Part shown: in pieces, positions 5,681 through 45,359 of the stretch
Layout: each line of letters opens with the position of its first letter
Position numbering within the stretch: position 1 is the first letter of the stretch
From: Peristeroidobacter soli
Lineage (GTDB): Bacteria > Pseudomonadota > Gammaproteobacteria > Steroidobacterales > Steroidobacteraceae
Assembly: GCF_004138485.1 (NCBI RefSeq)
Contig: NZ_RYEV01000005.1
Span: 496,001 to 560,000 of the forward strand
Direction of reading: 5' to 3'
Length of the DNA: 64,000 nucleotides
The notes under the pieces: generated by a model
What the model was told of the DNA's origin: nothing
Database searches by the model: none
Seen by the model: only the letters and a program-made list of their open reading frames with translations
Program-made: the position numbers and the translations under genes

Positions 5681-5715
5681 CCCACCGGCACCGCTGCACC
5701 CGCGGTGCCCGAATC

Positions 5716-6558: not shown

Positions 6559-6563
6559 CCTCG

Positions 6564-6597: not shown

Positions 6598-7009
6598 GCT
6601 CGTTCATCGACCACAGCACGCCGAACGGGTCTTTCAACTGGCCGTAGCGGGCGCCCCAGAACATATCCTGCAGCGGCAGCACGATCTCCGCGCCGGCATC
6701 TACCGCGCGCTGCCACCACTGGTCGATGTTCTTCACCTGCAGCGTCAGGTTGAAACCCTGCGGCTGCTCGCAGGGGTGGCCGTGCTCGGGATAGCCGTCG
6801 GCCAGCATCAGCGACGAGCCATTGACGTAAAGATGGATGTGCATGGTGCGGCCCTTGTCATCCACCGGATAACGAAACACTTCCCTGGCGTCGAATGCCT
6901 TCACGTAGAAGTCGGACGCCTTGCTGGCGCCATCCACGCACAGATAGGCGACCAGGCCGCCTTTGACTTCGGGATTCGGGTAGGGAGTTTCGCTCTGCGC
7001 CGCGCTCAT
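6590..7009 (-). CDS. VOC-superfamily (PhnB-like glyoxalase fold) protein
   Basis: A 139-residue single-domain protein with the PhnB-like VOC pattern: LVAYLCVDGASKASDFYVKA near the N-terminus, MHIHLYVNGSSLMLADG in the middle and QDMFWGARYGQLKDPFGVLW near the end. VOC proteins use a beta-alpha-beta-beta-beta fold as metal enzymes or small-molecule binders; the substrate cannot be read from sequence. AGGAG lies at good spacing before the ATG. It ends tail-to-tail with the pseudouridine-synthase gene. Confidence 0.8.
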   Translation of the reverse strand: MSAAQSETPYPNPEVKGGLVAYLCVDGASKASDFYVKAFDAREVFRYPVDDKGRTMHIHLYVNGSSLMLADGYPEHGHPCEQPQGFNLTLQVKNIDQWWQRAVDAGAEIVLPLQDMFWGARYGQLKDPFGVLWSMNEPK

Positions 7010-7098
7010 TTTCTGCTCCTGTTGCGAGTGGAACCGGTCGTTCGAGGCAAGGACGCCGCCGCCGACCGGTTCCCGACACAGGCGGGCAAAAAAGTCGG

Positions 7099-7848: not shown

Positions 7849-7885
7849 ATTCTTTGCCAGCCATATGCTTCGTCGGACGGGCGGA

Positions 7886-28831: not shown

Positions 28832-29143
28832 CTGCGATTCCTTTAGATCCCTCGACGAGTGTACGTCTGCGCGAGCGGCGATCAAACCATCGCCAGGGTG
28901 TACGGTGGATGAATATTGCATCCGATCCGCGACGGCGGGCGAATCCATTCCAGGTCAATCACCGAGGGTATTCGCTGCCACAAACGTCCTGGATTCCGTG
29001 ACGTAGCGCACGGTCGACACCTTGCGAGGGTCGTAGCCGGGTCGGTAGCATCCGTCGCGAATTTAACAAATAAAATCGTTCGGGATGGCAGCGGGTCGCA
29101 AGCAATCGCAGGGAGGAGCAAGTGCTGGCGCATTTGTTTCTGC
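28832..29143. promoter_or_regulatory. 312-base divergent control region upstream of the electron-transfer cluster
   Basis: No protein-coding gene is evident here. Visible items are an inverted repeat GGCGAT (28877-28882)/ATCGCC (28889-28894) near the protease start, an A/T-rich island ending in TAAAAT (29071-29076) that could be a -10, and GGGAGGAG at 29111-29118. That strong ribosome-site-like string suits a GTG at 29122 opening a 30-codon frame (29122-29214), out of frame with the oxidoreductase whose own ATG has no good site. No clear FNR or CRP palindrome is visible. Confidence 0.5.
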
Positions 29144-31675
29144 ATGTACCAAATCGCAATCATCGGCGCGGGCCCCGCGGGCCTCAGCGCAGCCGCACGC
29201 GCAGCGGCGCGTGATCAACAGGCGAGGCGCTCGAGCCCCAGCTACATACTGCTAGAAGGCTTCAGCGCGCACGCCAAGACCATCCAGCGTTACCAGAAGG
29301 GTAAGCATGTGATGGCCGAGCCCGGCTTCCTGGATCTGCGCAGCGATCTGGGCTTCGGCGCCGGCAGCCGCGAGAAAATTCTGTCGTCGTGGGGCGACGG
29401 TCTGCGTCAGCTCAGCGTCAACATCCGGCACAACGCTGAAGTCCGGAAGATCGGCGGCGGCAAGGGCGCGTTCTCGATCCAGCTCACCAGCGGCGAGACC
29501 CTGCAGGCCGCCTGCGTCGTGCTCGCGATCGGCCTGGAAGGCAATCCGCGCAAGCTGGGCGCGCCCGGCGAGGACCTGGAGCGGGTTCAATATCAGCTCG
29601 ACGATCCCAAGGAATTCAGCAACGAAACCATCCTGGTGGTCGGCGCCGGCGATTCGGCCATCGAAAACGCACTGGCCCTGGCCGAACAGAACGAGGTCTG
29701 GATCTTGAATCGCGGCAAGGAATTCAGCCGCGCCAAGGACGCCAACCTCAACGCCGTGGTCGCGGCCATCACCGATCCGCGCCGCCGGTTGAACTGTCAT
29801 TACGAGACCAGCATCAAGAGCGTCACCCAGACCAACGGTGCCATGCCTCTGTCGGTCGTCATGCAGACCGCGACGGGCGAGAAGACGGTGCAGTGTCACC
29901 GCATCATCGCGCGTCTGGGCGCCATTCCGCCCCGCAAGTTCGTCGAGTCCATCGGCATCAAGTTTCCGAACGAGCGCGCCGACGCCATTCCCGAGCTGAG
30001 CCGTCACTACGAAAGCAACGTGCCCGGCGTCTACATCATCGGCTCGCTGGCGGGCTATCCGCTGATCAAACAGGCCATGAACCAGGGCTACGACGTGGTC
30101 GAGTTCATCAACGGCAACGACGTGAAGCCGGCCGACCACGCGCTCCTCGAATATCAATTCTTCGGCCTGCCGTTCGAGCGCCCGGTGGATGAGATCATCG
30201 AACGCTTCCAGACCCTGATTCCGATGTTCCGCCAGATGAACCCGCTGGCGTTTCGTGAGCTGGTGATCGAGAGCGACCTGCTGGTCGCGTTTCCAGCCGG
30301 TGCCGAGTTCGACGATGCCCGCAAGCGGATGGGGGTGTTGCAGAAGAAGCTGGCGTTGAAAGATCCGCAGCCGCGCATGACCCGCGTCATTCGTGAGGGC
30401 GAGGTGATCTACGAGCCCGGCGAGTTCGGCACGTCGTTCTTCACCATCGTCGATGGCGAGGTGCTGCTCGAAGCCACCGGGCCGCAGAGGATCCGCACCC
30501 GGTTGGGGCGCGGTGAGTTCTTCGGCGAGATGAGTCTGCTGTCGGGCCGGCCGCGCCTGGAGAAAGCGGTCGCGGGTCCGGGCTGCATCCTGGTGGAGAC
30601 ACCTCGACGGACCATGGTGAAGCTGATCAACTCCAACGAGGAGGTGCGCAGCGGCATCGATTGGATCTTCATCGTGCGCGAGCTGCAGCGACACTTCGCG
30701 CCGTTCGCCACGCTCAGGGAGCTAAGAAACATCGCCACGCGCGTGACGCTGCGCAAGCTCAAGGCCGGCGAAGTGCTGTTCAGCGAGAAAGAACCCGGCG
30801 ACTCGTTGTTCGTCTTGCGCTCGGGCGCGATCACGTTGTTACGTCGGCAAGGTGACGAGGACAAGCTGGTGTCGCAGGTTCGCTCCGGTCAGCTGATCGG
30901 TGAGATGGCACTGATGGGCGATCCGGTGCGACGCGAGACCGCGACTGCCAACGTTGCCGCCGAGCTCATCGAGATCAAACGCAAGGAATTTCTCGAGCTG
31001 ACGCGTCGTGACGACGCGCGGCTCGATCCGCTGCAGAAGGACGTGAGCCGGCGCGTCGTGGACAACGCGCGCATGCAGGTGCGGCCGGAAGCGGGCACGC
31101 TGATGAACTTCCTGATGGACGAAGGGCTCGGCGAGGCCACCAACGTGCTGGTGATCGACGAAGCGCTGTGCGTCGGTTGTGACAACTGCGAAAAGGCCTG
31201 CGCCGAAACTCACGAAGGCGTGTCGCGACTGGATCGCGAAGCCGGCGCGACGTTCGCCAACATTCACATCCCGATCTCCTGCCGTCACTGCGAGCAGCCC
31301 CATTGCATGAAGGACTGCCCGCCGAATGCATTGCGCCGCTCGGAGAGCGGCGAGGTCTATATCAACGAGACCTGCATCGGCTGCGGCAACTGCGAGGCGA
31401 ACTGCCCGTACGGCGTGATCCGCATGGTCTACGACGCGCCGAAGAAGCCGGGCCTGGTGTCCTGGATGCTGTTCGCGATCGGCAGCGGCCCCGGCGAAGA
31501 GCCCGATTACACGCCCTCCGCCAAGGCCAAGGACAAAGGCAAGAAAGCCACCAAGTGCGACGCCTGCGTCGGCCTGAAGGGCGGACCGGCCTGTGTGCGA
31601 GCCTGTCCGACCGGTGCGGCCATTCGCATCGGACCGGAGCAATTCATCGACCTGGTCGAGGAGCGCAAGCGGTGA
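29144..31675 (+). CDS. FAD/NAD(P) oxidoreductase - 2x cyclic-nucleotide-binding - 4x[4Fe-4S] fusion
   Basis: An 843-residue three-part protein. Residues 1 to ~330 are a thioredoxin-reductase-fold flavoprotein with FAD motif IAIIGAGPAGLSAAA and pyridine-nucleotide motif ILVVGAGDSAIENALAL, but without the CxxC disulfide of thioredoxin reductase. Residues ~410-510 and ~530-625 are two cNMP-binding folds (FGEMSLLSGRPR; IGEMALMGDPVRRETATA). Residues ~671-830 are a DmsB/NrfC-like ferredoxin with four Cys clusters: CVGCDNCEKAC, CRHCEQPHCMKDCP, CIGCGNCEANCP and CDAC...CVRACP. Known families suggest NAD(P)H to FAD to Fe-S flow. Being leaderless it is cytoplasmic and probably docks on the next gene's membrane protein. 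The stop overlaps that gene as GTGA. The start is the first codon of the Rossmann strand, though its ribosome site is poor. Confidence 0.9.
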   Translation: MYQIAIIGAGPAGLSAAARAAARDQQARRSSPSYILLEGFSAHAKTIQRYQKGKHVMAEPGFLDLRSDLGFGAGSREKILSSWGDGLRQLSVNIRHNAEVRKIGGGKGAFSIQLTSGETLQAACVVLAIGLEGNPRKLGAPGEDLERVQYQLDDPKEFSNETILVVGAGDSAIENALALAEQNEVWILNRGKEFSRAKDANLNAVVAAITDPRRRLNCHYETSIKSVTQTNGAMPLSVVMQTATGEKTVQCHRIIARLGAIPPRKFVESIGIKFPNERADAIPELSRHYESNVPGVYIIGSLAGYPLIKQAMNQGYDVVEFINGNDVKPADHALLEYQFFGLPFERPVDEIIERFQTLIPMFRQMNPLAFRELVIESDLLVAFPAGAEFDDARKRMGVLQKKLALKDPQPRMTRVIREGEVIYEPGEFGTSFFTIVDGEVLLEATGPQRIRTRLGRGEFFGEMSLLSGRPRLEKAVAGPGCILVETPRRTMVKLINSNEEVRSGIDWIFIVRELQRHFAPFATLRELRNIATRVTLRKLKAGEVLFSEKEPGDSLFVLRSGAITLLRRQGDEDKLVSQVRSGQLIGEMALMGDPVRRETATANVAAELIEIKRKEFLELTRRDDARLDPLQKDVSRRVVDNARMQVRPEAGTLMNFLMDEGLGEATNVLVIDEALCVGCDNCEKACAETHEGVSRLDREAGATFANIHIPISCRHCEQPHCMKDCPPNALRRSESGEVYINETCIGCGNCEANCPYGVIRMVYDAPKKPGLVSWMLFAIGSGPGEEPDYTPSAKAKDKGKKATKCDACVGLKGGPACVRACPTGAAIRIGPEQFIDLVEERKR

Positions 31676-32544
31676 TCCACCGCAATCTGCTCTCGTATCG
31701 CGGCGCTCGTTACCTCTGGTGGTCGCTGGGGCTGATCATCGCGTCCTGTGCTCTATATGTCACACAGGGCGACTCGCAGCCGCCCAACGGCGGCACCTGG
31801 CAGGGGTATGTGCTCGGCACGGTCGGCGCGCTGCTGATCGTCTGGCTGACCATGCTCGGTGTTCGCAAGCGTCGCTACAGCTCGACCACGGGCACCGTGC
31901 AAGGCTGGACGTCGGCCCATGTGTATCTCGGTTCGGCGCTGATCGTCATCGCGACGTTGCATTCCGGCATCCAGGTTGGCTGGAATCTGCACACGCTTGC
32001 GTATGTGCTCATGTGTGTGGTGATTCTGAGTGGCTTCTTCGGCCTGTACACGTACATGAGCTACCCGCAGCTCATTTCCAAGAACCGCGAGGGTGGGGCA
32101 CGCGCGGAATTGTTTGCTGAATTGTTCGAGCTGGATCGAAATGCTCGCTCGGTGGCGAGCCGTTGCGCGCCGGACGTCGCCATTTCCGTCGACAGCAGCA
32201 TCGAGCGCACGACGCTGGGCGGCGGCATGTATTCGCAGCTGTTCAGTCGCGACGACTCGTATTTCGTTCGCGGCGAGGGCAAGCCGGTTCGAAACACCGA
32301 CCAGCAGCGAGTCATCGATTTCGTCGGCGCCCGCCTGCCGCGGGCGGCCAAGGGTGCCGAGGCCGCCAATCTCCAGCAGCTCATCGTCCTGCTCTGTCGT
32401 CGCCAGGCCGTGCTACGACGAATCCGTCGTGACATTCGTTTGTACGGCTGGCTCAAGATCTGGCTGTACTTTCATGTGCCCATCACCATCGCGCTGCTCG
32501 TGGCGCTGGTGTTGCACATCGTCGTGACGTTCTTCTACTGGTAG
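31672..32544 (+). CDS. Polytopic membrane protein with intramembrane His, probable b-type haem subunit
   Basis: A 290-residue protein starting at GTG 31672, overlapping the previous stop. I count about five membrane helices: four in the first ~125 residues and one at the end (HVPITIALLVALVLHIVVTF). His residues fall inside or at the edge of helices (SAHVYLG, ATLHSGIQ, LHTLAYV, and two in the last helix), as in diheme cytochromes b and ferric-reductase-like proteins. A ~130-residue soluble loop separates helices four and five. It would pass electrons between the cytoplasmic Fe-S protein and periplasmic haems, probably by way of quinone. No family name is certain. Confidence 0.75.
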   Translation: MIHRNLLSYRGARYLWWSLGLIIASCALYVTQGDSQPPNGGTWQGYVLGTVGALLIVWLTMLGVRKRRYSSTTGTVQGWTSAHVYLGSALIVIATLHSGIQVGWNLHTLAYVLMCVVILSGFFGLYTYMSYPQLISKNREGGARAELFAELFELDRNARSVASRCAPDVAISVDSSIERTTLGGGMYSQLFSRDDSYFVRGEGKPVRNTDQQRVIDFVGARLPRAAKGAEAANLQQLIVLLCRRQAVLRRIRRDIRLYGWLKIWLYFHVPITIALLVALVLHIVVTFFYW

Positions 32545-32550
32545 CCGCGC

Positions 32551-34392
32551 ATGGATGCATTACTACGCGAGCTACGGGAAGGGCCAGACGGTATCGCCGA
32601 GTACTACGATACCGAGATCAGCAGCAAAGCGCTGTCGATCGGCAGTGCCGCCGATCGCAACATTCAATTGTTGGGTCGAGGCATCGCGCCCGAGCATGCG
32701 GTCATCGTGCTGGCCGGCTCGCAGCTGATGCTGGAGTGCCGGCGCGGCGAGGTCGTTCGACTCAACGGCAGGAAGAAGGCGACGGCGCGGCTCAACGTCG
32801 GCGATGTGATCGAGCTGGCCGGACATCGGCTGCGCATCGCTCAGCCGCCGCCGGGGTTCAATGCCGCCATCGAGCTGCAACCGAACGATCGCATCGACGC
32901 CAGCGCGTTCGAAAGCGCCTTCCGCACCGACCTGTCCCAGACCTGGCTCGGCAAGCGCGCCATGGCGTGGACCGGCGTGGTGCTGGTGCTGTTGTTCGGA
33001 TTGATGCTGCCGTTCTTCGTCATGAAGTTGCATCACGCCGGCACGGCGACGCCTTCATGGGTGCCGGGCGACAAGTTCTGGAACACCGGACCGCTGCATC
33101 AAGTGCATCAACAGGCGACTGGCGATCGCTGCGAGACGTGTCATCAGAAGCTGTTCCAGCGCGTGCAGGACGCGGCGTGCACCGAATGTCATCGCACGAC
33201 GCACGATCACATCATGCCCGCGCGCCTGGCGCTCACCGAGCTCGGACCGACGCCGCGCTGTGCGACCTGTCATCGCGAGCACAACGAGCCCCAGACCTTC
33301 CTGGTCAACAGCGGCGACGGGATGTGCGTCGCTTGTCACGGCGATCCCGAGCACGGTTTCGGCGAGATCAAGCTGGATCGGGTGCTGGGCTTCGGCTTGC
33401 AGCGTCATCCCGAGTTCAAGCCTCACCTGCTGGTCTCGACGACGGCGCCGGCGGGCTCAGGCCTCACGTATGAATGGAAGACGCTGGTCGCCGAGCTGGA
33501 CCAGGCGAAGGAACAGTCGAACCTGAAGTTCTCTCACCAGCAGCATCTGGATCCGGATCAGGTGCTCCGTCGCGGCGACAGCAAGCCGATGAACTGCGCC
33601 GACTGTCATCGCCTGGAGCCGGATGGCGAGCACTTCGCGCCGATCCGGATGGAAGGGCAATGTTCGTCGTGTCATGAGCTCACGTTCGATCCCGGCGCGC
33701 CGGATCGTCAGCTGCCTCACGGCAAGCCGCGCGAAGTCGTGCTCACGCTGCAGGATTATTTCACCCGCAAGTTCTCCGATCCAAACGCCGGCAAGGTGAC
33801 CCGCGAGCGTCGTCGCCTGCCGGGGCATGAAGAGGAGGAGGAGACCTGCACCGGCGCGCCGTTCGATTGCGCCATGCGCAGTGCTCGCAAGGAAATCGAA
33901 AGTCAGTTTACCCGGCGCGGCTGCATCGGCTGTCACGCCGTGATCGACACGCAAGCGCCCAATGTGTTCGATCGCTTCCAGGTCATTCCGATCAAGTTCG
34001 CGCGCGACTATTTCCCCTCGAATCGCTTCGATCATCGCAGCCACCAGATCCAGGGCAAGCTGACCGGCGACGACGCGTGCCTGTCCTGCCACGCAGCCAA
34101 AAAATCCGAGGACGCCAGTGATCTGATGGTGCCGGGCATTACGAAATGCACCGAGTGTCATGGCGATAAGGCCGCGGCCGAGCGAGTCACCGTGCAATGC
34201 GTGAGCTGTCACGAATATCACCCCCGCGATCCATCGCTGCGGGACATCTTCAGCAGCAGCCCGAGTCCGCGCATCACGACGCAATTGATCCCAAAGGCTG
34301 CGCGACCGCAGGAGCGCGGCCTGGGGAATTCCGCGGCAGAGCGAATGGGCGAAACCAAACCGGCGCCTGCGGGCGAACTCGCTGGATCATGA
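32551..34392 (+). CDS. FHA-like domain - transmembrane helix - decahaem cytochrome c
   Basis: A 613-residue chain with three parts. Residues ~25-105 resemble an FHA domain (LSIGSAADRNIQL, GIAPEHAVIV, VRLNGRKK), but the usual GR and SxxH phosphothreonine contacts read GS and APEH. One membrane helix lies at ~137-161. The remainder is periplasmic by the positive-inside pattern and has ten CxxCH sites, from CETCH at residue 194 to CVSCH near 549, plus many free His for bis-His ligation. No signal peptide: the helix is a signal anchor. The next gene overlaps as ATGA. FHA fused to a multihaem cytochrome would place a signalling input directly on the redox carrier. Confidence 0.88.
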   Translation: MDALLRELREGPDGIAEYYDTEISSKALSIGSAADRNIQLLGRGIAPEHAVIVLAGSQLMLECRRGEVVRLNGRKKATARLNVGDVIELAGHRLRIAQPPPGFNAAIELQPNDRIDASAFESAFRTDLSQTWLGKRAMAWTGVVLVLLFGLMLPFFVMKLHHAGTATPSWVPGDKFWNTGPLHQVHQQATGDRCETCHQKLFQRVQDAACTECHRTTHDHIMPARLALTELGPTPRCATCHREHNEPQTFLVNSGDGMCVACHGDPEHGFGEIKLDRVLGFGLQRHPEFKPHLLVSTTAPAGSGLTYEWKTLVAELDQAKEQSNLKFSHQQHLDPDQVLRRGDSKPMNCADCHRLEPDGEHFAPIRMEGQCSSCHELTFDPGAPDRQLPHGKPREVVLTLQDYFTRKFSDPNAGKVTRERRRLPGHEEEEETCTGAPFDCAMRSARKEIESQFTRRGCIGCHAVIDTQAPNVFDRFQVIPIKFARDYFPSNRFDHRSHQIQGKLTGDDACLSCHAAKKSEDASDLMVPGITKCTECHGDKAAAERVTVQCVSCHEYHPRDPSLRDIFSSSPSPRITTQLIPKAARPQERGLGNSAAERMGETKPAPAGELAGS

Positions 34393-36443
34393 GACAGACT
34401 TCACAGATTCGCTGGTGGCGGGGCTTGCTATTGCCGTTTTCGGCGGTCGTGCTGGCGGCATGCTCAGGCGGCTCGCCCACCACGCCGACGACAGGCACCG
34501 ATACCAGCAATCCGAATTGCACTGGCACTTGCCTTGGCACGTCGCTATCGAATCTAACCGTCGCCGATGTGCAACGGGTGATCGCGCAGGGCGTCGCCGA
34601 AGCGCAGGCACGCGGCACGAATGCAACGATCGCGGTCGTCGATCGCGTCGGCAACGTGCTCGCCGTGTACCGCATGGGCGACGCGAGCACGCGCTCGGTC
34701 ACGGTGACGACGTCGCCGGACGGCAGCGCGCCGATCTCCGGTGGGTTGGAAGGCATTCGTCTGCCGGTGCAGGCGGCGATGGTGAACATCGATCAAGCGG
34801 CGGCCATCGCGAAGGCGGTGACCGGCGCGTATCTGTCTTCGGAAGGCAACGCGTTCTCCACGCGGGTCGCCAGCCAGATCGTGCAGGAACATTTCAATCC
34901 GGGGGAGGACTTCCAGCCCGCCGGCCCGTTGTTCGGGGTGCAGTTCAGTTCGCTCGCCTGCTCCGATCTGGTTCGCTCGTTCACCGGAACACCGGGCCCG
35001 GGGCCGCAGCGGACGCCGCTTGGATTATCGGCAGACCCTGGTGGTTTCCCGCTCTACAAGAACGGCACCGTGGTGGGCGGTGTCGGTGTGCTGGCCGATG
35101 GCTTCTACAGCATCGACAAAAACATTCTGGATCGTGACATCGACGTGGACGAAGCGATCGCGCTCGCCGCGACGTTCAGTTATAGCGCGCCGGTCGATCG
35201 ACGCGCGGATCGCATCACCGTCGACGGCAAAGTGCTGCGCTTCACCGATGTGGAGTTCGCCGATCTCAGCACCAACCCGCAGTCGGCCGCAGACTTCAGC
35301 ACACTCACCGCGGCCGTGGGTGCGCTGATCATGGTGCCCGGCTATACGGACGGTGTGATTCGCGACGGCACGGTGTTCGGCCAGCCCGGGTCGGGTGTGC
35401 GACCGGACGGCGATATGAATTTTCCGGGGCGGGATGCGTTCGTCCTGGTCGATGAAACCAACAACCTGCGTTATCCGCCACGCGCCGGCACCGATGGAGC
35501 GTCGGCGCTGACTGAAAGCGAAGTTCGCACGTTGCTCCAATCGGCGCTCGATGTCGCGAACCGCGCCCGTGCGCAGATCCGCCGCCCGGTGGGATCACAA
35601 GCGCGCGTGACGATCTCGGTGGTCGACTCGCAAGGCGTGATTCTGGGCGTTGCTCGCACGCGTGATGCGCCTCTGTTCGGCACGGACGTGTCGTTGCAGA
35701 AGGCGCGCACTGCCGCCTTCATGTCATCGAGCACGGCGGCGAGCTTCATCGCGACCTTGCCTGACGCGCGATATCTCAGCACGACGGACGCCTCCGTCAG
35801 TGTCGTGCGCTCGATTCAATTGAGCAGCTACGTGGATGCGTTGCGAACCTTCATTGGCAGTCCCACCGCGCTTGCCGACGGTCAGATCGCATTCACCGAT
35901 CGCGCCAACGGCAATCTGTCGCGACCGTTCTTTCCCGATGGCATCAACGGCGCGACTCCGGGCCCGTTGAGCAAGCCGGCCGGCGAGTGGAGCCCGTTCT
36001 CCACCGGCCTGCAGCTCGATCTGGTGATGAACGCGACACTTCAGCACGTGTTGTTCGTGGCCGGCGTGCCCGGAATTCCCGATGTCGCGACGGGCTGCGC
36101 GGGCGTGCAACTCGCCACCGACCTGACCAGCGTGGGGCAGACGATCACGGGCGTGCGTCTGGCGAATGGGCTGCAGATCTTCCCGGGCAGCGTGCCGGTT
36201 TACCGAGGCAATGTGTTGATCGGCGCGGTCGGTGTGTCCGGCGACGGCGTCGATCAGGACGACATGGTCGCGTTCATGGGCCTGCACAATGCCGGCCAGA
36301 CGTTGAGCGGCGCGATCAACAACGCCCCGGCGGAAATGCGCTCCGACAATCTGCTGCCGCAAGGCGTGCGCCTGCGCTATGTGCAGTGTCCGCAGGCGCC
36401 GTTCATCGACGGCACGGACGACAACGTGTGTGGAGGGAAGTGA
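34389..36443 (+). CDS. Lipoprotein with repeated GlcG/HbpS-like domains
   Basis: A 684-residue protein with a lipobox ending LAAC (Cys25) followed by Ser-Gly-Gly, so a membrane-anchored lipoprotein facing the periplasm or surface. Residues ~50-240 and ~390-480 each carry the GlcG/HbpS (former DUF336) pattern: VQRVIAQGVAEAQARGTNAT then AVVDRVGNVLAVYRM, and LLQSALDVANRARAQI then ISVVDSQGVILGVARTRDA. PVYRGNVLIGAVGVSGDGVD near the end resembles the C-terminal half of the same fold. HbpS binds haem and senses redox stress in Streptomyces; a haem or redox-partner role fits the neighbours but is inference. The start overlaps the previous stop. Confidence 0.75.
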   Translation: MRQTSQIRWWRGLLLPFSAVVLAACSGGSPTTPTTGTDTSNPNCTGTCLGTSLSNLTVADVQRVIAQGVAEAQARGTNATIAVVDRVGNVLAVYRMGDASTRSVTVTTSPDGSAPISGGLEGIRLPVQAAMVNIDQAAAIAKAVTGAYLSSEGNAFSTRVASQIVQEHFNPGEDFQPAGPLFGVQFSSLACSDLVRSFTGTPGPGPQRTPLGLSADPGGFPLYKNGTVVGGVGVLADGFYSIDKNILDRDIDVDEAIALAATFSYSAPVDRRADRITVDGKVLRFTDVEFADLSTNPQSAADFSTLTAAVGALIMVPGYTDGVIRDGTVFGQPGSGVRPDGDMNFPGRDAFVLVDETNNLRYPPRAGTDGASALTESEVRTLLQSALDVANRARAQIRRPVGSQARVTISVVDSQGVILGVARTRDAPLFGTDVSLQKARTAAFMSSSTAASFIATLPDARYLSTTDASVSVVRSIQLSSYVDALRTFIGSPTALADGQIAFTDRANGNLSRPFFPDGINGATPGPLSKPAGEWSPFSTGLQLDLVMNATLQHVLFVAGVPGIPDVATGCAGVQLATDLTSVGQTITGVRLANGLQIFPGSVPVYRGNVLIGAVGVSGDGVDQDDMVAFMGLHNAGQTLSGAINNAPAEMRSDNLLPQGVRLRYVQCPQAPFIDGTDDNVCGGK

Positions 36444-36444
36444 C

Positions 36445-38364: not shown

Positions 38365-38379
38365 GGGTTGTGCTCGGAC

Positions 38380-41300
38380 ATGCCAAAGATGCCAACAACC
38401 CTCCTCAGCAAGCTCGCAACCGTGCTTGTGATGTGCGCGCTCAACAGCGTGGCTTCGGCCAGCCTGTTCGGCGACGAGCCGAAGTATGTGACCGCGTCGT
38501 CCGCACCCAAGAGCCAGACCGACGAGATGATGCGGGCGAAGACCGAGGGCTGCCAGACCTGTCACACGCAAACCGATCAGGCGACGATGCATATGAACCC
38601 GGCGGTGAAGCTGGGTTGCACGGACTGTCACGGGGGCGATGCGAATGTGCGCCTCGTGCCCGGCGTTCAACGCGGCACCAAGGAGTACATGAAGCAGCAG
38701 GAGCTCGCGCACGTACTGCCGAAGTTTCCGGAGGAGTGGAATTATCCGTCCAGTGCCAACCCGCGGCGCACCTACACGCTGTTGAATCGGGAGAGCCCCG
38801 AGTTCATTCGTTTCATCAATCCGTCCGACTACCGCATCGTTCGCGAGTCGTGCGGCGCCTGTCACATGGAGATCATCGAGGCTTCCGCGCGCAGTATGCA
38901 CACGACGGGCGCGATGCTGTGGGGTGGCGCGGCTTATAACAATGGCATTCTGGATTTCAAACAGTACATCCTCGGTGAGGCCTACGACCGCAATGGCCAG
39001 GGCGTGCTGTTGAAGGGACCGAAGATCCCGGATCATCTGATCAATCAGGCGGCGGTCGCCGGCATTCTGCCGCAGCTATATCCGCTGCCGTCGTGGGAAA
39101 CGATTTACCCCGGTGACATCTTCCGTGTGTTCGAGCGTGGCGGACGGAACATCGCGAACCTGTTTCCCGAAACCGGTCTGCCCAATGCCGCCGGTCAGCT
39201 GCAACGAATCGAAGAGCCGGGGCGGCCCGATTTCCGTCAATCCAATCGCGGCCCGGGCACGGGTGCTCGCATCGCGGTGCCGGTCATCAATATCACCAAG
39301 ACGCGGTTGAACGATCCGCTGCCGTGGTTCATGGGCACGAACGACCAGCCGGGCGACTTCCGGCATTCGGGCTGCGCGTCCTGCCACGTCGTGTATGCGA
39401 ACGATCGCGACAAGCGTCATTCGAGCATCTACGCGAAGTTCGGTCATGAAGGCCTGACGCGCACCGTCGATCCGACCATCAGCAAGAGCGAGCCCGGTCA
39501 TCCGCTGACGCATTCGTTGACGCGCTCGGTACCGACCAGCCAGTGCATGGTCTGTCACATGCATCAGCCGAACATGTTCATGAACAGCTTCCTCGGCTAC
39601 ACGATGTGGGACTACGAGTCCGACGCGCCGTTCATGTGGCCCGAGCAACAGCAGTACCCGACCAGCGAGCAGATCCGCAAAGTCCTGGATCGCAATCCGG
39701 AAGGCGCGGCGACGCGGGGCAAATGGGCGGACGTGAACTTCCTGAAGCAGGTGTCGGAGCTCAATCCGCAGCTCAAGGACACGCAGTTCGCGGACTATCA
39801 CGGCCACGGCTGGAACTTCCGCGCAGTGTTCAAGCGAGATCGCAAGGGCAATCTGCTCGACGCCAACAACAAGGTGGTGAGCGACGAGGATCCGCAGAAG
39901 TTCAAGAAGGCGGTCCACATGTCGTCCATTCACGTCGACGTGGGCATGCAGTGCGTGGACTGCCACTTCTCGCAGGACAATCACGGCAACGGCTACATCT
40001 ATGGTGAGGTTGCCGCCGCCGTCGAGATCGACTGCAAAGACTGCCATGGCACGGCACTGCAGCTGCCGAACTTGTACACGTCGGGTCCGGCCGCGTTGGG
40101 TGGCGGCGTGGACATGACGACGCTGCGCACGCCGGATGGCCGCCGGCGCTTCGAGTGGGTCGGTGACACGCTGTATCAGCGCTCGATGATGGAGGCGGGC
40201 GTCGAATGGCGCATGAGCCTGGTGAAGCGCTCGGTGGATCCCAACAGCGCGGAGTACAACCCGAAGGCGGCGCGTGCCAAGCTCATGAGCAAGAACACGT
40301 CGTCGCTGGAGTGGGGCAAGGGCGTCGCGCCGAACAACCTCGCGCACACCGATGAGAACGTCGAGTGTTATACGTGCCACACGTCGTGGACCACGAGCTG
40401 TGGCGGCTGTCACTTGCCGATCGAGGCGAACGCCAAGACCGAGCGTCATCACTACGAAGGCGGCGAGACGCGCAACTACGCGACGTACAATCCGCAGGTC
40501 GCGCGTGACGACATGTTCCTGCTCGGTCGTCGCGAGCCTGCCGCCGGCGGCAAGATCGCGCCCGTGAGATCGAGTTCGGCGCTGGTACTGTCGTCGACCA
40601 ACGCGAACCGCGAGAAGATCTATATCCAGCAGCCGCCGATCGCGGCCAGCGGCTACAGCTCGCAGGCGTTCAACCCGCATTACCCGCATACGGAGCGCAA
40701 GACCGAGACCAAGACTTGTACCGATTGTCACCTGTCGAAGGAGAACGACAACAACGCCATCATGGCGCAGCTGTTGGCGCAGGGAACCAACTTCATCAAC
40801 TTCGTCGGCTACAACGCGTACGTGGGCGGTCAGGGGCAGATCAGCGCGGTGAACGTGACCGAGTGGGATGAGCCTCAGGCCGTCATCGGCAGCTATCTGC
40901 ATCGCTATGCCTATCCGGACTGGTTCGCCGCTCACAACAAGAACGATCGCGAGCTGAAGAATGGCTACAGTCACAGCGCGGGCGAGGTGAGGTGTCTGCA
41001 GTTGCGTGGCGAATATCTGTATGTCGCCGAGGGACGCGGCGGCCTGCAGGTGTACGACGTGGCGAGCCAGGGTAACAAGGGCGTGTCACAACGATTGATC
41101 ACGGCACCGTTCAGCCCGTTGGGTCACGATACCCAGGTCAATACGAAGGACGCGACGTGCGTGGCGCTGCCGACCAATCAGCCGATTCATCCGCCGCGTA
41201 ACAACGGCGAGAAGATGCGGGTGGCAAACCTCGAGCAGCCGATTCATCCGCTCTACAACTACGCGTACGTGACGGACTCGAAGGAAGGACTGATCCTGGT

Positions 41301-42132
41301 CGACGTGAACACGATGGCTGACGGCGAGCCGCGCAACAACTTCCTGAAGCGTGCGGTGACCTGGAATCCGGGCGGTGTGCTCAACGGCGCGCGTCACATC
41401 ACCGTCGGCGGCTATTACTTGTACATCACGACGGCGAAGGGCGTGGCCATCGTCAGTGTCGATACGCCGAAGAACCCGGTGCTGATCGCGGAGATTCCGC
41501 TGAAGGATGCGCGTTCGACGGCCTTGCAGTTCCGTTATCTGTTCGTCACCGACGCCGAGGGCTTGAAGACCGTCGATGTGACAGATCCGAAGGCGCCGCG
41601 GCTCGTGCCGGACAACACCATTCGTATCAAGAACGCGCAGCGCGTGTTCGTCGCGAGAACGTACGCGTACGTCGCGGCGGGCAGCGATGGTGTCGTGATC
41701 GTCGATGCAGAGCGGCCGGAGCGAATGTTCGAGTATCAACGCTTCACGGCCGGCGGCAAGATCACCGATGCCCGTGATGTGATCGTCGCGACGACCAATG
41801 CTTCGTTGTTCATGTACGTGGCGGACGGCGAGGGCGGCCTCAAGGTGGTGCAACTCACGTCGCCAGCCTCACAGCCGAAGTTCTATGGCTTCAGCCCCGA
41901 TCCCAAGCCGGAGCTGATTGCGATGTATTCGACCAGCAAGCCGGCGCTGAGCCTTTCCAAGGGCCTCGAGCGCGATCGCGGCGTGGACGAGACGGGCGGT
42001 CAGATCGCCGTCTTCGGTCGCCGCGGCTCGCGACCGCTCAACCTGGAAGAAATGCGCAAGCTGTTCCTGGATGACAACGGGCAGCCGTGGTATGTCACCG
42101 ACCAGGTAGAACAGAGGGTCTCGCGACAATGA
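38380..42132 (+). CDS. Decahaem cytochrome c fused to an LVIVD beta-propeller
   Basis: A 1250-residue exported protein with signal peptide MPKMPTTLLSKLATVLVMCA, probably cleaved after VASA. The first ~800 residues hold ten CxxCH motifs (CQTCH at residue 58, then CTDCH, CGACH, CASCH, CMVCH, CVDCH, CKDCH, CYTCH, CGGCH, CTDCH), unevenly spaced. From ~868 to ~1190 come repeated LVIVD-type blades (LQVYDV, LILVDV, VAIVSVDTPKNPVLIAE, LKTVDVTDPKAPRL, VVIVDAERPERM). Propellers of this type occur in cell-surface proteins, so it may be the terminal surface reductase. ATG 38380 is chosen; GAGGG lies 13 bases upstream. A short repeat-derived PALSLSKG segment lies near the end. Confidence 0.88.
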   Translation: MPKMPTTLLSKLATVLVMCALNSVASASLFGDEPKYVTASSAPKSQTDEMMRAKTEGCQTCHTQTDQATMHMNPAVKLGCTDCHGGDANVRLVPGVQRGTKEYMKQQELAHVLPKFPEEWNYPSSANPRRTYTLLNRESPEFIRFINPSDYRIVRESCGACHMEIIEASARSMHTTGAMLWGGAAYNNGILDFKQYILGEAYDRNGQGVLLKGPKIPDHLINQAAVAGILPQLYPLPSWETIYPGDIFRVFERGGRNIANLFPETGLPNAAGQLQRIEEPGRPDFRQSNRGPGTGARIAVPVINITKTRLNDPLPWFMGTNDQPGDFRHSGCASCHVVYANDRDKRHSSIYAKFGHEGLTRTVDPTISKSEPGHPLTHSLTRSVPTSQCMVCHMHQPNMFMNSFLGYTMWDYESDAPFMWPEQQQYPTSEQIRKVLDRNPEGAATRGKWADVNFLKQVSELNPQLKDTQFADYHGHGWNFRAVFKRDRKGNLLDANNKVVSDEDPQKFKKAVHMSSIHVDVGMQCVDCHFSQDNHGNGYIYGEVAAAVEIDCKDCHGTALQLPNLYTSGPAALGGGVDMTTLRTPDGRRRFEWVGDTLYQRSMMEAGVEWRMSLVKRSVDPNSAEYNPKAARAKLMSKNTSSLEWGKGVAPNNLAHTDENVECYTCHTSWTTSCGGCHLPIEANAKTERHHYEGGETRNYATYNPQVARDDMFLLGRREPAAGGKIAPVRSSSALVLSSTNANREKIYIQQPPIAASGYSSQAFNPHYPHTERKTETKTCTDCHLSKENDNNAIMAQLLAQGTNFINFVGYNAYVGGQGQISAVNVTEWDEPQAVIGSYLHRYAYPDWFAAHNKNDRELKNGYSHSAGEVRCLQLRGEYLYVAEGRGGLQVYDVASQGNKGVSQRLITAPFSPLGHDTQVNTKDATCVALPTNQPIHPPRNNGEKMRVANLEQPIHPLYNYAYVTDSKEGLILVDVNTMADGEPRNNFLKRAVTWNPGGVLNGARHITVGGYYLYITTAKGVAIVSVDTPKNPVLIAEIPLKDARSTALQFRYLFVTDAEGLKTVDVTDPKAPRLVPDNTIRIKNAQRVFVARTYAYVAAGSDGVVIVDAERPERMFEYQRFTAGGKITDARDVIVATTNASLFMYVADGEGGLKVVQLTSPASQPKFYGFSPDPKPELIAMYSTSKPALSLSKGLERDRGVDETGGQIAVFGRRGSRPLNLEEMRKLFLDDNGQPWYVTDQVEQRVSRQ
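41935..41970 (+). repeat. In-frame dispersed-repeat insert (SKPALSLSKG type)
   Basis: The bases coding SKPALSLSKG contain CTGAGCCTTTCCAAGGG, close to the widespread intergenic palindrome core CTGAGCCTGTCGAAGG. Translation of that repeat gives PALSLSKG in many unrelated bacterial proteins. Here it sits in frame in the C-terminal linker of the decahaem-propeller protein. Confidence 0.55.
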
Positions 42133-42170
42133 TAAAACAGCGACGCGGGCATCCTGCCACTCGCGCTGTG

Positions 42171-42204
42171 GCGCCGGAGAAAAGGCGCGACTTTTCCCCG
42201 GCGC
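42171..42204 (+). other. 14-bp hairpin between the decahaem-propeller and c554-like genes
   Basis: GCGCCGGAGAAAAG (42171-42184) pairs with CTTTTCCCCGGCGC (42191-42204) with one mismatch around GCGCGA. It lies in the only sizeable gap (118 bases) of the cluster. A partial terminator or mRNA-stability element would let upstream and downstream genes be expressed in different amounts. Confidence 0.55.
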
Positions 42205-42250
42205 TCGCCGCCTGCGGCGTCGGGCACGTCCATGTGCCTGGGGGTGCCAT

Positions 42251-43549
42251 GTGCAAGGTTCCGTAACTCGTCGCACGCCGTGGATGGTCGCGGCGTTAGT
42301 GGGGGTGAGCGTGCGCGCGCTCGCCATCGAGCCGGGTATTGCCGATTACAAACATATGGGGGTGGCGAGCTGTGCCACCAGCGTGTGTCACGGCAAGCTC
42401 GCGCCGCAGTCAGACAAGGACGTGGCGTTGAACGAGTACCGGATCTGGCAACAGGAAGACCGGCACGCGCAGGCGTTCCGAACGCTGGAGCTGGCCGAGT
42501 CCAAACGCATCGCCACCAATCTCGGACTGCCGAATGCGACCGCGGCCAGGATTTGTCTCGACTGCCACGCCGACAATGTGCCGTCCGACAAGCGCGGCCC
42601 GAAGTTTCAGATGAGCGACGGCGTGGGCTGCGAAGCGTGCCACGGTGGCTCGGAGAAATGGCTCGAAAGCCACGCGACCGAAACCGCCACGCATAAGGAC
42701 AACGTGGCGCGCGGCATGTATCCAACGGAGCAGCCGCTGAAACGGGTTCAGGTGTGCCTGGGATGTCATCTCGGCACCAAGGATCAATTCGCGACGCACG
42801 CCATCATGGGCGCCGGTCATCCGCGCCTGAGCTTCGAGCTCGAGGCTTACACCACCAATCAGCCGGCGCATTTCATCGTCGATGAGGACTACAACGAACG
42901 CAAGGGCGAGATCCCCGGCATGAACCTGTGGGTCACCGGCCAGATCGAAACCACGCGTCGCTACCTGTCGCTGTTGCAAACAAACATGTTCCATGCGGGC
43001 GACATGTTTCCGGAGCTGGCGTTCTACGATTGCCACAGCTGCCATCATCCGATGGACAAGATCCGCTGGAATTCGGCGCGCGCGGGCGCCGGCATCAAGC
43101 CGGGAACGGTGCGTTTGCAGACCCAGAATCTCATCGTGTTGCAGGCCCTCACCGATGCTTTCGAACCCTCCGCGACCGCGCAGCTCGCCGATCTGACGAA
43201 CGCGCTCATTCGCGCCGGGCAGCGCGATCGTGCCGCGGTGAGCGAGGCGGCGAAGGCGTTGCTGAACTGGCTGGGCCCGCGCGATGCGCTCGCTCGTAAA
43301 CAATATTCGAGCGCCGATGTAATTAAGATGCGCAAGACGCTCGCTCGTTGGGCGGCGACCGACAAAGCAGGCGACTATGCGGCTGCGGAGCAGATCGTGC
43401 TGGGGCTGGAGAGCCTGAGTTACACGATCGGCGATCGCAACAGCAAGAAGGCGGCGCTGGATGCGCTGTACAACGCGGTCAAGAACGACACGACGTTCAG
43501 CCCGCAACAATTCGCCGCTGCCGCGGCCAACGCGCAAAAATCATTCTGA
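42251..43549 (+). CDS. Cytochrome c554-like multihaem protein
   Basis: A 432-residue exported protein starting at GTG 42251, with GGGGG about seven bases upstream and an RR-containing signal peptide ending VRALA. It has four CxxCH sites (CLDCH, CEACH, CLGCH, CHSCH) and an N-terminal CATSVCH at residue 41, a CX4CH site as seen in some cytochromes c3 and in c554-related proteins. The order MGVASC...VCHG, then CHADNVP, resembles the cytochrome c554 family. The last ~170 residues are helical and haem-free. Likely a soluble periplasmic shuttle among the larger cytochromes. Confidence 0.85.
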   Translation: MQGSVTRRTPWMVAALVGVSVRALAIEPGIADYKHMGVASCATSVCHGKLAPQSDKDVALNEYRIWQQEDRHAQAFRTLELAESKRIATNLGLPNATAARICLDCHADNVPSDKRGPKFQMSDGVGCEACHGGSEKWLESHATETATHKDNVARGMYPTEQPLKRVQVCLGCHLGTKDQFATHAIMGAGHPRLSFELEAYTTNQPAHFIVDEDYNERKGEIPGMNLWVTGQIETTRRYLSLLQTNMFHAGDMFPELAFYDCHSCHHPMDKIRWNSARAGAGIKPGTVRLQTQNLIVLQALTDAFEPSATAQLADLTNALIRAGQRDRAAVSEAAKALLNWLGPRDALARKQYSSADVIKMRKTLARWAATDKAGDYAAAEQIVLGLESLSYTIGDRNSKKAALDALYNAVKNDTTFSPQQFAAAAANAQKSF

Positions 43550-43561
43550 ACGAGCCCCACC

Positions 43562-44392
43562 GTGCGCTTCCCAGCCGCCAGCAAACGATTCTCCGGACGG
43601 ACTCACCCGGGCCGTCGCGGCGGTCCGAATGAAGACGTGATCGGTTGGGACGAGGCCAGCCACTTCTGGTTCGTCGCCGACGGCATGGGCGGGCATGCCA
43701 GCGGCGACGTGGCCAGCCGCGTCGTGAAAGAAACATTGCTGGGCGAGGCGTTGACGCTGCCGCTGGTGGATGCCCTGAAGAAGGCGCATGAAACGGTGCT
43801 GGCAACCGCAAAGACGAATACTGCTTACGACAACATGGGTTCGACCGTCGTGGCGACGCGCATCGTTGAGCGCGAGGCGGAGATTGCCTGGGTCGGCGAC
43901 AGCCGCGCGTATCTGTGGCGTGCCGGTTCGTTGAGTGCGCTGACGCGCGATCACTCCTATCTGGAAGTCCTGCGAGTCCAGGAGAATCTTTCCGAAGAGC
44001 AACTGCGCGGTCATCCCAACCGCAACCTGGTCACCCGGACGCTGGGCATCGGTACGCCGGAGCCGTCGACCGCGAAACTGCCTCTGAAACGGCGGGACTG
44101 GCTGCTTCTGTGCAGTGACGGGCTCAATGACGAGCTGGAGGATCGTGAGATCGCCGAAGTGTTGCGTACCCATACGGAGCTGGAGGAGGCCACGGAGGCG
44201 CTGATCGATGCGGCGCTCGCCAAAGGCGGGCGGGACAATGTGAGCGCGGTGGTCGTCGAGTACGACGGGCCGGACGCGGTCGAGGTTTCGAGCGGGATGT
44301 CGCAGAAACTCAGGCCGATGTTACCTATTATTGGCGGTATGGCCGCCGCCACGCTTGTGGCGGTCTTGTGGTGGTGGTTCTATGGTCGCTGA
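43562..44392 (+). CDS. PP2C-family protein phosphatase with C-terminal membrane anchor
   Basis: Mn/Mg-dependent Ser/Thr phosphatase of 276 residues. Metal and catalytic motifs are all present: NEDVIG, VADGMGGHASGDVAS, STVVA, AWVGDSRAYLW, LLLCSDGLND and GGRDNVSAVVV. A hydrophobic segment (IIGGMAAATLVAVLWWWFYG) at the extreme end anchors it in the inner membrane with its catalytic domain in the cytoplasm. Start GTG 43562, 12 bases after the cytochrome gene; the ribosome site is weak. It overlaps the FHA gene by 11 bases, the usual pairing of phosphatase and phosphothreonine reader. No Ser/Thr kinase is in the window. Confidence 0.92.
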   Translation: MRFPAASKRFSGRTHPGRRGGPNEDVIGWDEASHFWFVADGMGGHASGDVASRVVKETLLGEALTLPLVDALKKAHETVLATAKTNTAYDNMGSTVVATRIVEREAEIAWVGDSRAYLWRAGSLSALTRDHSYLEVLRVQENLSEEQLRGHPNRNLVTRTLGIGTPEPSTAKLPLKRRDWLLLCSDGLNDELEDREIAEVLRTHTELEEATEALIDAALAKGGRDNVSAVVVEYDGPDAVEVSSGMSQKLRPMLPIIGGMAAATLVAVLWWWFYGR

Positions 44393-45359
44393 ATCCAACG
44401 CAGTCCTGATCAAGGTCGGCAACAGCCGCGAGATCCAGGTGAAGCAGGAAACCGTACTGGGCCGGCAGGCCGAGTGCGACGTGCTGCTCACCGAAGGTCA
44501 TACGTCCCGGCGGCACGCCAGACTGGTGCAAGCCGAGGATGGCTATTGGCTGGAGGACCTGGGCTCCTCCAACGGCACGTTCATCAACGGCAATCGAATC
44601 TCGGGTCGGGTGAAAATCGCCTCGGGCGACCGGCTGCGTTTCGACGTCGAAGAGTTCGACTTCCGTATTCCGTCGCAGGGAGCTGCACCGGTGGCGCTCG
44701 ATGAGAGCAAGACGGTGTATCGGGCGCCGGAGTCGGCGGCGGTCGTGGCTGAGAGCAGCGGTGTGTTCAAACGGCCGGGCGCGTGGGCGGATCCGGATGC
44801 GATGGGCGATGCCGGCATCCACAAGACCAAGTTCATCGATCCCGCCCAGATGAAACAAATGGCCAGCAGCACCGCGCCGGTCGCGGCGGCGCCCAGCTCG
44901 GTCGATGGACCGCATCTGCAAGTGGTGTCCGGGAGCCGCACCGGATTGAACATTCGCCTGGCGGTCGGCGACTCGGGCAATGCCGAGTGGACCATCGGCA
45001 GTCAGACGGATCGCGAAGTGCAGTTCATGGATAGCGGCGTGTCGGCGCTGCACGCCAAGATCGTCAATGAAGGCGAGCGCTGGAAAGTGCTCGATCAGAT
45101 GTCGGCGAACGGCACGTTCGTCAATGGCAAGCGGGCCAATGTGAGTTATCTCGCCTCCGGCGATCGCGTGCGCTTCGGCCCGGTCGAATGCGTGTTCCGC
45201 ACCGATGCCAGCAGCGCCCCCATCACCGCCACTCAGCGCATCGCCGATGCGAGCGTAGGCGAGGAGACCAAAGGCCGGAACCTCGTGGTCGCGACGGTCG
45301 CGTTCCTTGCGACCATCGCCGTGCTGTTCGTTGTCTATAAATTCTTGCTGGCGAAGTAG
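44382..45359 (+). CDS. Double-FHA-domain membrane-anchored protein
   Basis: A 325-residue protein from ATG 44382. FHA1 (residues ~6-95) is canonical: VLGRQAECDVLL, TSRRHARLV, LEDLGSSNGTFINGNRI, with Arg, Ser and Asn positioned to bind phosphothreonine. FHA2 (~190-285) is weaker in its first loop (TIGSQTDREVQF, VSALHAKIV) but keeps SANGTFVNGKR. A Pro/Ala-rich linker joins them, and a helix at the end (VVATVAFLATIAVLFVVYKF) anchors it with both domains cytoplasmic. It is probably the reader of phospho-Thr marks removed by the adjacent PP2C. The stop lies directly against the stop of the convergent DUF899 gene. Confidence 0.92.
   Translation: MVAESNAVLIKVGNSREIQVKQETVLGRQAECDVLLTEGHTSRRHARLVQAEDGYWLEDLGSSNGTFINGNRISGRVKIASGDRLRFDVEEFDFRIPSQGAAPVALDESKTVYRAPESAAVVAESSGVFKRPGAWADPDAMGDAGIHKTKFIDPAQMKQMASSTAPVAAAPSSVDGPHLQVVSGSRTGLNIRLAVGDSGNAEWTIGSQTDREVQFMDSGVSALHAKIVNEGERWKVLDQMSANGTFVNGKRANVSYLASGDRVRFGPVECVFRTDASSAPITATQRIADASVGEETKGRNLVVATVAFLATIAVLFVVYKFLLAK

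Follow-up and report, generated by a model that had tools for sequence, protein, structure and literature searches.

A cluster of nine genes fills positions 29144-45359 of the Peristeroidobacter soli DNA analysed here, a window of 64,000 nucleotides (64 kb; G000:C4:496001-560000, G000 being the organism's own genome of 9.37 Mb). The genes, designated g1 to g9, all lie on the + strand and form one directon among the open reading frames (ORFs) of the window. It is judged somewhat probable that they encode a trans-envelope electron conduit of the porin-cytochrome complex (PCC) kind, a sister of PCC4, which would run outward from NAD(P)H independently of the quinone pool and for which gating by cyclic nucleotides is proposed. 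The original prediction for this DNA, a nine-gene cluster, is borne out, as all nine genes are present on the + strand. Its statement that the genes nearly all overlap or lie within 15 bases holds for seven of the eight junctions: g1/g2 and g3/g4 overlap by 4 bases and g8/g9 by 11, and gaps of 6 (g2-g3), 1 (g4-g5), 15 (g5-g6) and 12 bases (g7-g8) separate the others, whereas the g6-g7 gap is 118 bases. The window contains 28 copies of the haem motif TGYNNNNNNTGYCAY where 4.3 would be expected, and 0 of 100 shuffles reach 28. CXXCH is found ten times each in g3 and g6, the two decahaem cytochromes that had been predicted, and four times in g7, which has one CX4CH in addition. A scan for promoters and terminators over 28800-45700 gave 2 promoter-like and 13 terminator-like sites against 3.0 and 11.5 in shuffles and was uninformative.

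The first gene, g1 (29144..31675, +), encodes a cytoplasmic NAD(P)H/FAD reductase of the YpdA/TrxR-like type, joined to two cyclic-nucleotide-binding (cNMP) domains and to a DmsB-like one that would hold four [4Fe-4S] clusters. Pfam detected Pyr_redox, two cNMP_binding and Fer4 matches, with an Fe-S match to PF13247 at E 5e-10, and the domain order is NAD(P)H/FAD, then the two cNMP domains, then Fe-S. The YpdA model of NCBIfam (TIGR04018) gave 104.6 bits against a cut-off of 339.9, indicating a related protein and not a member. The Fe-S domain has 16 Cys in 48 of 48 alignment rows, which suffice for four [4Fe-4S] clusters, and the FAD part shows no conserved CXXC in the same alignment. No hydrophobic segment was found in g1, as expected of a soluble protein. 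Since family matches as well as conserved residues are in place for FAD, NAD(P)H and four [4Fe-4S] clusters, g1 is the cytoplasmic NAD(P)H-type flavoprotein/Fe-S donor that had been anticipated.

The product of g2 (31672..32544, +), previously described as an inner-membrane His-rich protein, is better classified as an inner-membrane protein of the cytochrome b type. W79, H83, H97, H107, G121, G124, W264, H268 and H282 are present in 36 of 36 rows and S120 in 34 of 36, so that W79/H83/H97 and W264/H268/H282 make two WX3HX13H pairs and S120-G-x-x-G124 makes an SGXXG motif. In the available passages of He et al. (2017; PMC5566968), this signature is carried by the inner-membrane proteins of PCC3 and PCC4, which are likened to ferric reductases and cytochrome b. 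The only Pfam match of g2 is to cytochrome b561, sub-threshold at 23.7 bits against a cut-off of 30.1. A hydropathy scan flags residues 44-65, 102-130 and 260-290; the PCC4 membrane protein has five helices according to the same passages, and five are plausible for g2. The next gene, g3 (32551..34392, +), combines an N-terminal FHA-like domain (Pfam FHA, 22.6 bits; cut-off 20.7), one predicted transmembrane (TM) segment (135-163) and an exported decahaem cytochrome with a Pfam multihaem match. Ten CXXCH are found in 56 of 60 rows and nine in the other four. With 27.2 bits against a cut-off of 192.2 for the DmsE model, g3 is not of that type.

The next four genes are g4 to g7. The lipoprotein that had been predicted is g4 (34389..36443, +), which has a LAAC-S lipobox and, as a refinement, HbpS-like domains (PF03928), a family described by Pfam as haem-degrading. 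The g5 gene (36445..38364, +) encodes a predicted outer-membrane beta-barrel. Neither a Pfam family match (MtrB_PioB, PF11854, included) nor a credible sequence relative in the PDB was found for it. The AlphaFold2 model, made with 49 sequences (pLDDT 79.6, pTM 0.74), contains 19 strands of at least 7 residues, about 18 of them assigned to the barrel, and the top Foldseek match is AlgE (3rbh; E 7.8e-18, TM score 0.45 by query and 0.67 by target, root-mean-square deviation 8.3), followed by OprD/Occ channels. The g6 gene (38380..42132, +) encodes an exported decahaem cytochrome with Pfam multihaem and LVIVD matches, the latter from C-terminal repeats of the beta-propeller type. Its ten CXXCH are kept in 80 of 81 rows, and one row has eight. 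At 70.4 bits against a cut-off of 800, the model NF040943 does not identify it as ExtM, the cytochrome of selenite/tellurite operons. No solved structural relative of g6 was found by sequence, and for its haem part, modelled at pLDDT 59.7, Foldseek returned four rows, all at E >3 and meaningless. The c554-like carrier of the original prediction corresponds to g7 (42251..43549, +), an exported protein with a Cytochrome_C554 match, now refined to five haem motifs, since its 4 CXXCH and 1 CX4CH are both kept in 59 of 59 rows.

The cluster recurs far beyond the genus. A scan with g6 of contigs from 84,980 species yielded at least 594 stretches, at least 591 of them encoding a g6 relative, and the best 80 were kept; being the best-scoring of at least 591, these loci lean to near relatives. 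In these 80, the neighbours of g6 are mostly the same gene set. At least 9 kb lies upstream of g6 in 57 loci (the other 23 were left out of the upstream tally), and among these g1, g2 and g3 were each found in 56, g4 in 55, g5 in 57 and g7 in 42. A search for a shared gene neighbourhood had been suggested as a check of the original prediction; it was run, and the set turned out to be conserved across Alpha-, Beta- and Gammaproteobacteria. The order varies: g1 stands after g7 in betaproteobacterial loci, many alphaproteobacterial loci have g7 inverted or show none, and two convergent blocks occur in L114, a locus titled Sphingomonadaceae, and on pMSHV, a plasmid of Sphingobium herbicidovorans. 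Within a set of 60 related genomes, g3 was found in 12, P. soli included (11 of the 59 others). The order g1-g5 is kept in all 11 fetched regions, and g6 comes next in nine; the exceptions are L025, which ends inside g5, and L033 (genome G023), in which g6 is on another contig. Within this set of regions, g8 and g9 are confined to members of the same genus. Among 19 relatives, g6 is present in 11 of 11 genomes with g3 and in 0 of 8 same-genus genomes without it.

A phylum sample of 398 evenly drawn genomes, P. soli included, gave a similar picture. The g1 gene is present in 15 of them and the barrel in 12, all within those 15, even where the genes are unlinked. Full-length g6 was found in 11 genomes, all with g1, g2 and g5; g6 matches were obtained in 15, of which 4 are fragments of 43-54 bits that were not counted. 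The one carrier of the barrel without full-length g6, G213, has g1-g5 on a contig that ends after g5. The two halves are unlinked in G455, with g1 and g6 on different contigs, and in G408 and G273, where they lie >600 kb apart. Judged by this co-occurrence, g1 to g6 are a unit, in which two modules can be distinguished: A, consisting of g1-g3, and B, consisting of g4-g6 together with g7.

An electron chain is suggested by the cofactors and the gene order. Electrons from NAD(P)H would pass to FAD and then to the four [4Fe-4S] clusters within g1 in the cytoplasm, and from g1 to the two haems b of g2 (H83/H268 and H97/H282) in the inner membrane. They would proceed to the decahaem g3, tethered in the inner membrane, to the pentahaem carrier g7 and to the decahaem-propeller cytochrome g6. 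The latter may be held at the outer membrane by the barrel g5 and the lipoprotein g4 and would reduce an outside or outer-periplasmic acceptor, such as iron or haem, a metal oxide or a humic quinone. Such a chain would operate without a quinone step. The main reason for preferring outward flow over an inward, quinone-linked model is that two types of NAD(P)H flavoprotein accompany the same pair of Fe-S and membrane proteins, a YpdA-like one here and one with NAD_binding_1/Fer2 in PCC4-like loci with the same membrane protein. With most outside acceptors, NAD(P)H oxidation runs downhill, and flow the other way requires an input of energy.

The opposite direction, in which an outside donor (ferrous iron, Mn(II), minerals or a cathode) would feed g6, g7 and g3 and, through g2, quinone or NAD(P)+, corresponds to the way PCC4 was modelled by He et al., inward from donor to quinone, in the available passages of PMC5566968. 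A Haliea metagenome-assembled genome (MAG) titled 'Biocath' also carries the cluster (L041). Inward flow is nevertheless considered quite improbable: g1 is a flavoprotein of the NAD(P)H type, reduction of NAD(P)+ by such donors is uphill without energy input, and the named carriers include the heterotrophs Steroidobacter, Parahaliea and Limnobacter.

Outward flow may be controlled at its first step by the tandem cNMP domains, which lie between the flavin and Fe-S domains of g1. Both domains of the window's g1 contain the Glu and Arg of the phosphate-binding cassette, whose roles are presumed to be those in PKA and CRP. As had been predicted, two cNMP-binding domains are fused to a carrier, and their pocket residues are kept. 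On the assumption that the signalling domains are only structural relics, the cNMP domains would serve merely to assemble g1 and the FHA domain to place g3, the phosphatase and double-FHA genes being hitch-hikers. This is unlikely in our estimation. The Glu of cNMP domain 2, kept in 35 of 48 rows, would be in keeping with it, whereas the Arg of both pockets (48 of 48 each) and the Glu of domain 1 (47 of 48) argue against it, as does the recurrence of cNMP domains, about 25% identical to g1, in PCC4-like loci. The FHA domain of g3 speaks in favour of a relic. Of the 48 rows of its family, 30 have the usual Arg and 4 the usual Ser, residues that we take to be the phosphothreonine contacts of FHA domains; the FHA-like domain of the original prediction was thus detected, in a degenerate form that has lost the usual phosphothreonine-binding residues.

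The last two genes bear on the same question. The g8 gene (43562..44392, +) encodes a PP2C phosphatase, Stp1-like according to Pfam and NCBIfam, and g9 (44382..45359, +) a double-FHA protein (two Pfam FHA stretches, and NCBIfam). Because each ends in a predicted hydrophobic segment (250-274 in g8 and 298-325 in g9), phosphatase and FHA adaptor are probably tethered at the inner membrane. The operon was expected to end with a PP2C phosphatase and a double-FHA protein, and here it does; across loci they are accessories of one gammaproteobacterial branch, each present in 18 of the 42 loci with both flanks long, a restriction that would also suit hitch-hiking. On the tree, their presence (either gene in 25 of 59 scored rows) requires a minimum of 2 changes. 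The first FHA domain of g9 keeps GR, SxxH and NG in its translation, which we take to be the FHA motif and which does not suggest a relic. Nor do the cyclase genes found in or beside the cluster. A Guanylate_cyc-FHA gene stands between g7 and g8 in L093, L099 and L110, which lack g9 within the examined stretch and count as one event because they form one clade; a cyclase-domain ORF lies directly behind g1 in L109, and a CHASE2-cyclase faces g1 in L102. L032 has a CHASE2 domain only, and the L031 member of the same family has no Pfam match. The P. soli genome encodes a 39%-identical cyclase-FHA homologue about 400 kb from the cluster. Ser/Thr kinase-like ORFs occur near L062, L047, L039 and, weakly, L077, Pfam having been run on that of L062 only. 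In the gated conduit favoured here, the tethered PP2C and FHA proteins would add control in the one gammaproteobacterial branch, and a cyclase or Ser/Thr kinase would do so in some relatives. Signalling domains fused to carriers in a conserved envelope electron-transfer unit, as originally claimed, are upheld by the kept neighbourhood and cNMP pockets. A tentative extension, possible but doubtful, is that in many Proteobacteria cNMP binding to the donor flavoprotein switches a quinone-independent drain of NAD(P)H without new transcription, the switch being set by a loop of cyclase-FHA, PP2C and FHA proteins.

Several observations weigh against the gated outward conduit, beginning with the published inward model of PCC4. 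The g5 protein is predicted to be an AlgE/OprD-like channel and not an MtrB-like sheath. MtrB has 26 strands, and because the roughly 18 strands of g5 would make a narrower barrel, a decahaem may not fit inside it. Exit through the outer membrane is left unproven for g5 on account of this predicted fold, and the outer-membrane barrel of the original prediction stands with that amendment. The same applies to the route from the cytoplasm to the cell surface: a conserved electron-transfer unit into the envelope is supported, and its surface exit is not. In addition, g6 has a signal-like N-terminus and no lipobox. The g1-g2-g3 genes also occur in three genomes (G060, G093 and G212) for which neither a barrel nor g6 passed the thresholds; g1 and g2 are fused in two of these. 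This suggests that the outer-membrane part is dispensable for module A to work, or to persist. On the side of control, only 5 of 88 loci, those named above, have a Pfam-confirmed cyclase within or next to the cluster, the window's own operon contains no cyclase or kinase, and the FHA domain of the window's g3 has Ser32 for the usual Arg and Ala46 for the usual Ser.

The module A loci with the g1-g2 fusion, an ORF of about 1120 residues, are L147 and L148 (G093 and G212). L147 continues with two chemoreceptor genes, and L148 has a TonB plug gene in the vicinity of module A.

The strongest rival reading is a surface iron or haem reductase for acquisition, in which the electrons would serve g4 and g6 in reducing ferric chelates or haem and g5 would be a channel for the product. 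The nearness of g5 to AlgE and OprD/Occ channels, the HbpS-like domains of g4 and the TonB plug gene of L148 all point this way, provided that the HbpS-like domains do act on haem. An ORF family with a FecR domain lies upstream of g1 in 7 of 88 loci; Pfam, applied to five of them, placed L030, L031 and L033 above and L067 below the cut-off and gave no match in the incomplete piece of L028. In L033, the FecR gene is accompanied by a TonB-dependent receptor at the place of g6 (3697-7922, -), following the barrel. On the other hand, when about a dozen of the 40 largest flank families were sampled with Pfam, none of their representatives proved to be a TonB or Feo protein, and 25 c-type haems would be a costly outfit for chelate reduction. 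Acquisition of iron or haem is accordingly rated as rather unlikely to be the main role, and electron export from NAD(P)H is retained as the preferred reading. If it is true, many bacteria seen as plain heterotrophs own an unrecognised outlet for reductant, which bears on the redox cycling of iron, manganese and humic matter in soil and sea. The cluster also provides a case in which second-messenger control within the electron carriers themselves can be put to the test, and a cNMP-gated wire, if real, would mean that redox export is controlled like an ion channel.

In the window, a divergent ORF (26858-28948, -) precedes g1; judged by eye from its translation, it resembles an S8-type serine protease that is secreted and carries an anchor at its C-terminus. 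On the other side, g9 is directly followed by a convergent DUF899 ORF (from 45360, -). Among the 40 largest flank families, about a dozen were identified through their representatives; these are mostly unrelated enzymes and gave no lead to the acceptor. Recurrent ones are FecR, cyclase/CHASE2, Ser/Thr kinase, caspase-like and CcmH/CycH. The last, a cytochrome c maturation family, flanks 5 of 88 loci (L051, L074, L077, L098 and L102) and is Pfam-confirmed in L098, a recurrence that favours the conduit reading. A small ORF with a median of 180 residues is inserted between g3 and g4 in alphaproteobacterial L068-L071, L082, L086, L092, L096, L097 and L105; the L096 copy has a weak Biotin_lipoyl match and that of L082 has none. 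Another region of the P. soli genome (L034, G000:C1:440-447 kb) was considered as a paralogous cluster and rejected, as it matches none of the nine genes at E 1e-5; it contains a double-cNMP ORF of 1061 residues, a double-FHA ORF of 888 residues and a kinase.

Horizontal acquisition of the cluster is likely, judging by three features of its distribution: the window's g6 is 70-72% identical to those of Haliea/Pseudomonadales MAGs (L028-L032, L039-L043, L067 and L104) and 64-65% to those of relatives in the same family or order, it groups with the branch bearing g8 and g9, and the cluster is present in only 5 of 13 same-genus genomes. The nearest named g6 relative is that of Steroidobacter agaridevorans, at 94-95% identity. 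Both modules are found on pMSHV (L022, NZ_CP020539.1), a megaplasmid typed as conjugative, and 11 more Sphingobium plasmid records have a g1 homologue of 41-42% identity over 95% of its length. Three loci have titles that are out of place on the tree (L071, Marinimicrobia; L095, Klebsiella pneumoniae; L113, Bordetella parapertussis) and are possibly mislabelled bins.

Among known systems, MtrCAB, PioAB and MtoAB share decahaem cytochromes and a barrel with the cluster. They differ in that g5 lacks a PF11854 match and has about 18 strands, g3 is not of the DmsE type, and electrons would enter from NAD(P)H and not through a quinol oxidase of the CymA type. The only MtrB_PioB match elsewhere in the genome is partial (contig C3, 29.1 bits, just over the cut-off), and none lies in the cluster. 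A NapC-type gene about 120 kb away indicates that the genome has a quinol-linked haem protein, but outside the cluster. Ferric reductases and NADPH oxidases resemble the cluster in using NAD(P)H, flavin and two haems b held by HX13H pairs across a membrane, according to passages of PMC5566968; here the electrons would be passed on to multihaem cytochromes, and g2 reaches the cytochrome b561 family only below threshold. PCC3, treated by He et al. and, for Gallionellaceae, in PMC10734462, has a membrane protein of the same signature, and the g2 homologue of PCC3-like L150 matches at E 2e-17. The haem counts of PCC3 are much larger (about 10-35; ORFs of 24 and 27 CXXCH in L150), and no homologue of g5 or g6 was found in L150. 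Near the PCC3-like cluster, at L150:4480-5925 (-), an Fe-S protein is encoded whose YpdA-like FAD domain is 34% identical to that of g1; an NAD(P)H donor may exist for PCC3 as well.

In the open-licence literature, neither a name nor an experiment was found for the cluster, and among the papers listed for multihaem cytochromes together with FHA, cNMP, LVIVD or HbpS none was seen to describe it. The cluster is not described in the available passages of PMC12175321, PMC12016527, PMC10734462, PMC13322032, PMC9226611 or PMC6344600, the last of which mentions unspecified novel PCCs. The closest account is in passages of PMC13264449 (June 2026), on MAGs from ghost rock, where 11 unnamed PCCs of a 'first group' have a decahaem gene of 4-5 kb beside that of a porin with about 20 strands; in 7 of the 11, a gene for ferredoxin-NADP+ reductase is nearby. 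Because this description fits g6-g5-g1, the first group is very probably the same system, matched by description alone. The main text of PMC13264449 contains 'cyclic nucleotide' 0 times, and its available passages mention PCC4 for other clusters.

The relationship to PCC4 is the closest. In the passages of PMC5566968, PCC4 subgroup II consists of a porin, three multihaem cytochromes (4, 5 and 10 haem sites) and a further redox protein, and a PF13247 Fe-S protein adjoins a membrane protein with two WX3HX13H and SGXXG. The cluster has a g2 of this signature beside a PF13247 Fe-S domain, which in g1 is fused to the flavoprotein and cNMP domains, and its barrel g5 adjoins the multihaem cytochrome g6, an adjacency that is kept across loci and is expected of PCC genes in general. 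It departs from PCC4 in its haem counts (10, 10 and 4+1 vs 4, 5 and 10), in the fusion of a YpdA-like flavoprotein to the cNMP-Fe-S protein, where PCC4 has a separate reductase, in the FHA-TM part of the decahaem g3, and in the HbpS-like lipoprotein and LVIVD cytochrome, which are absent from those passages. PMC5566968 does not use the term 'cyclic nucleotide' in its main text. The comparison was made with PCC4-like loci reached via weak g2 hits, and not with the genomes named in that paper. Matches to g2 were obtained in 27 of the 398 genomes, 15 strongly (at least 224 bits) and 12 weakly, and nine of the weak ones were fetched (L149-L151 and L154-L159; G259, G089 and G244 were left out).

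The best such locus, L157, follows the PCC4 recipe, with a 5-haem ORF, a barrel-like ORF (judged by its C-terminal F only, as it has no Pfam match), a FAD_binding_6/NAD_binding_1/Fer2 reductase, a 4-haem c554-like cytochrome, a cNMP-cNMP-Fer4 protein, the membrane protein and a 10-haem cytochrome. It is matched by hidden Markov models (HMMs) of g1 (E 2e-59), g2 (9e-18) and g3 (8e-19). PCC4-like loci have homologues of g1 (cNMP-Fe-S part), g2, g3 (haem part) and g7; the HMMs of g5 and g6 found no match in the nine PCC4- and PCC3-like loci, of which only L157 and perhaps L149 have an ORF that was recognised as barrel-like. Pfam confirmed cNMP domains in seven of seven PCC4-like Fe-S proteins (L149, L151, L154, L156, L157, L158 and L159), and no cNMP-Fe-S gene was seen beside the membrane protein gene of L155. 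A flavoprotein of the NAD_binding_1/Fer2 type accompanies the membrane protein in L149, L151 and L157. By these matches, the core of the cluster (cNMP-Fe-S protein, membrane protein and decahaem) is homologous to that of PCC4-like loci. The contrast originally drawn with Mtr- and Pio-type systems, that carriers are fused to signalling domains, is only partly borne out: PCC4 has the same core design and PCC4-like loci have the cNMP domains as well. New here are module B, an NAD(P)H flavoprotein fused with tandem cNMP and Fe-S domains, the FHA-tethered decahaem, the accessory phospho-signalling and cyclase genes and the breadth of distribution. The shared core in turn suggests that PCC4 itself may run outward from NAD(P)H and not inward to quinone.

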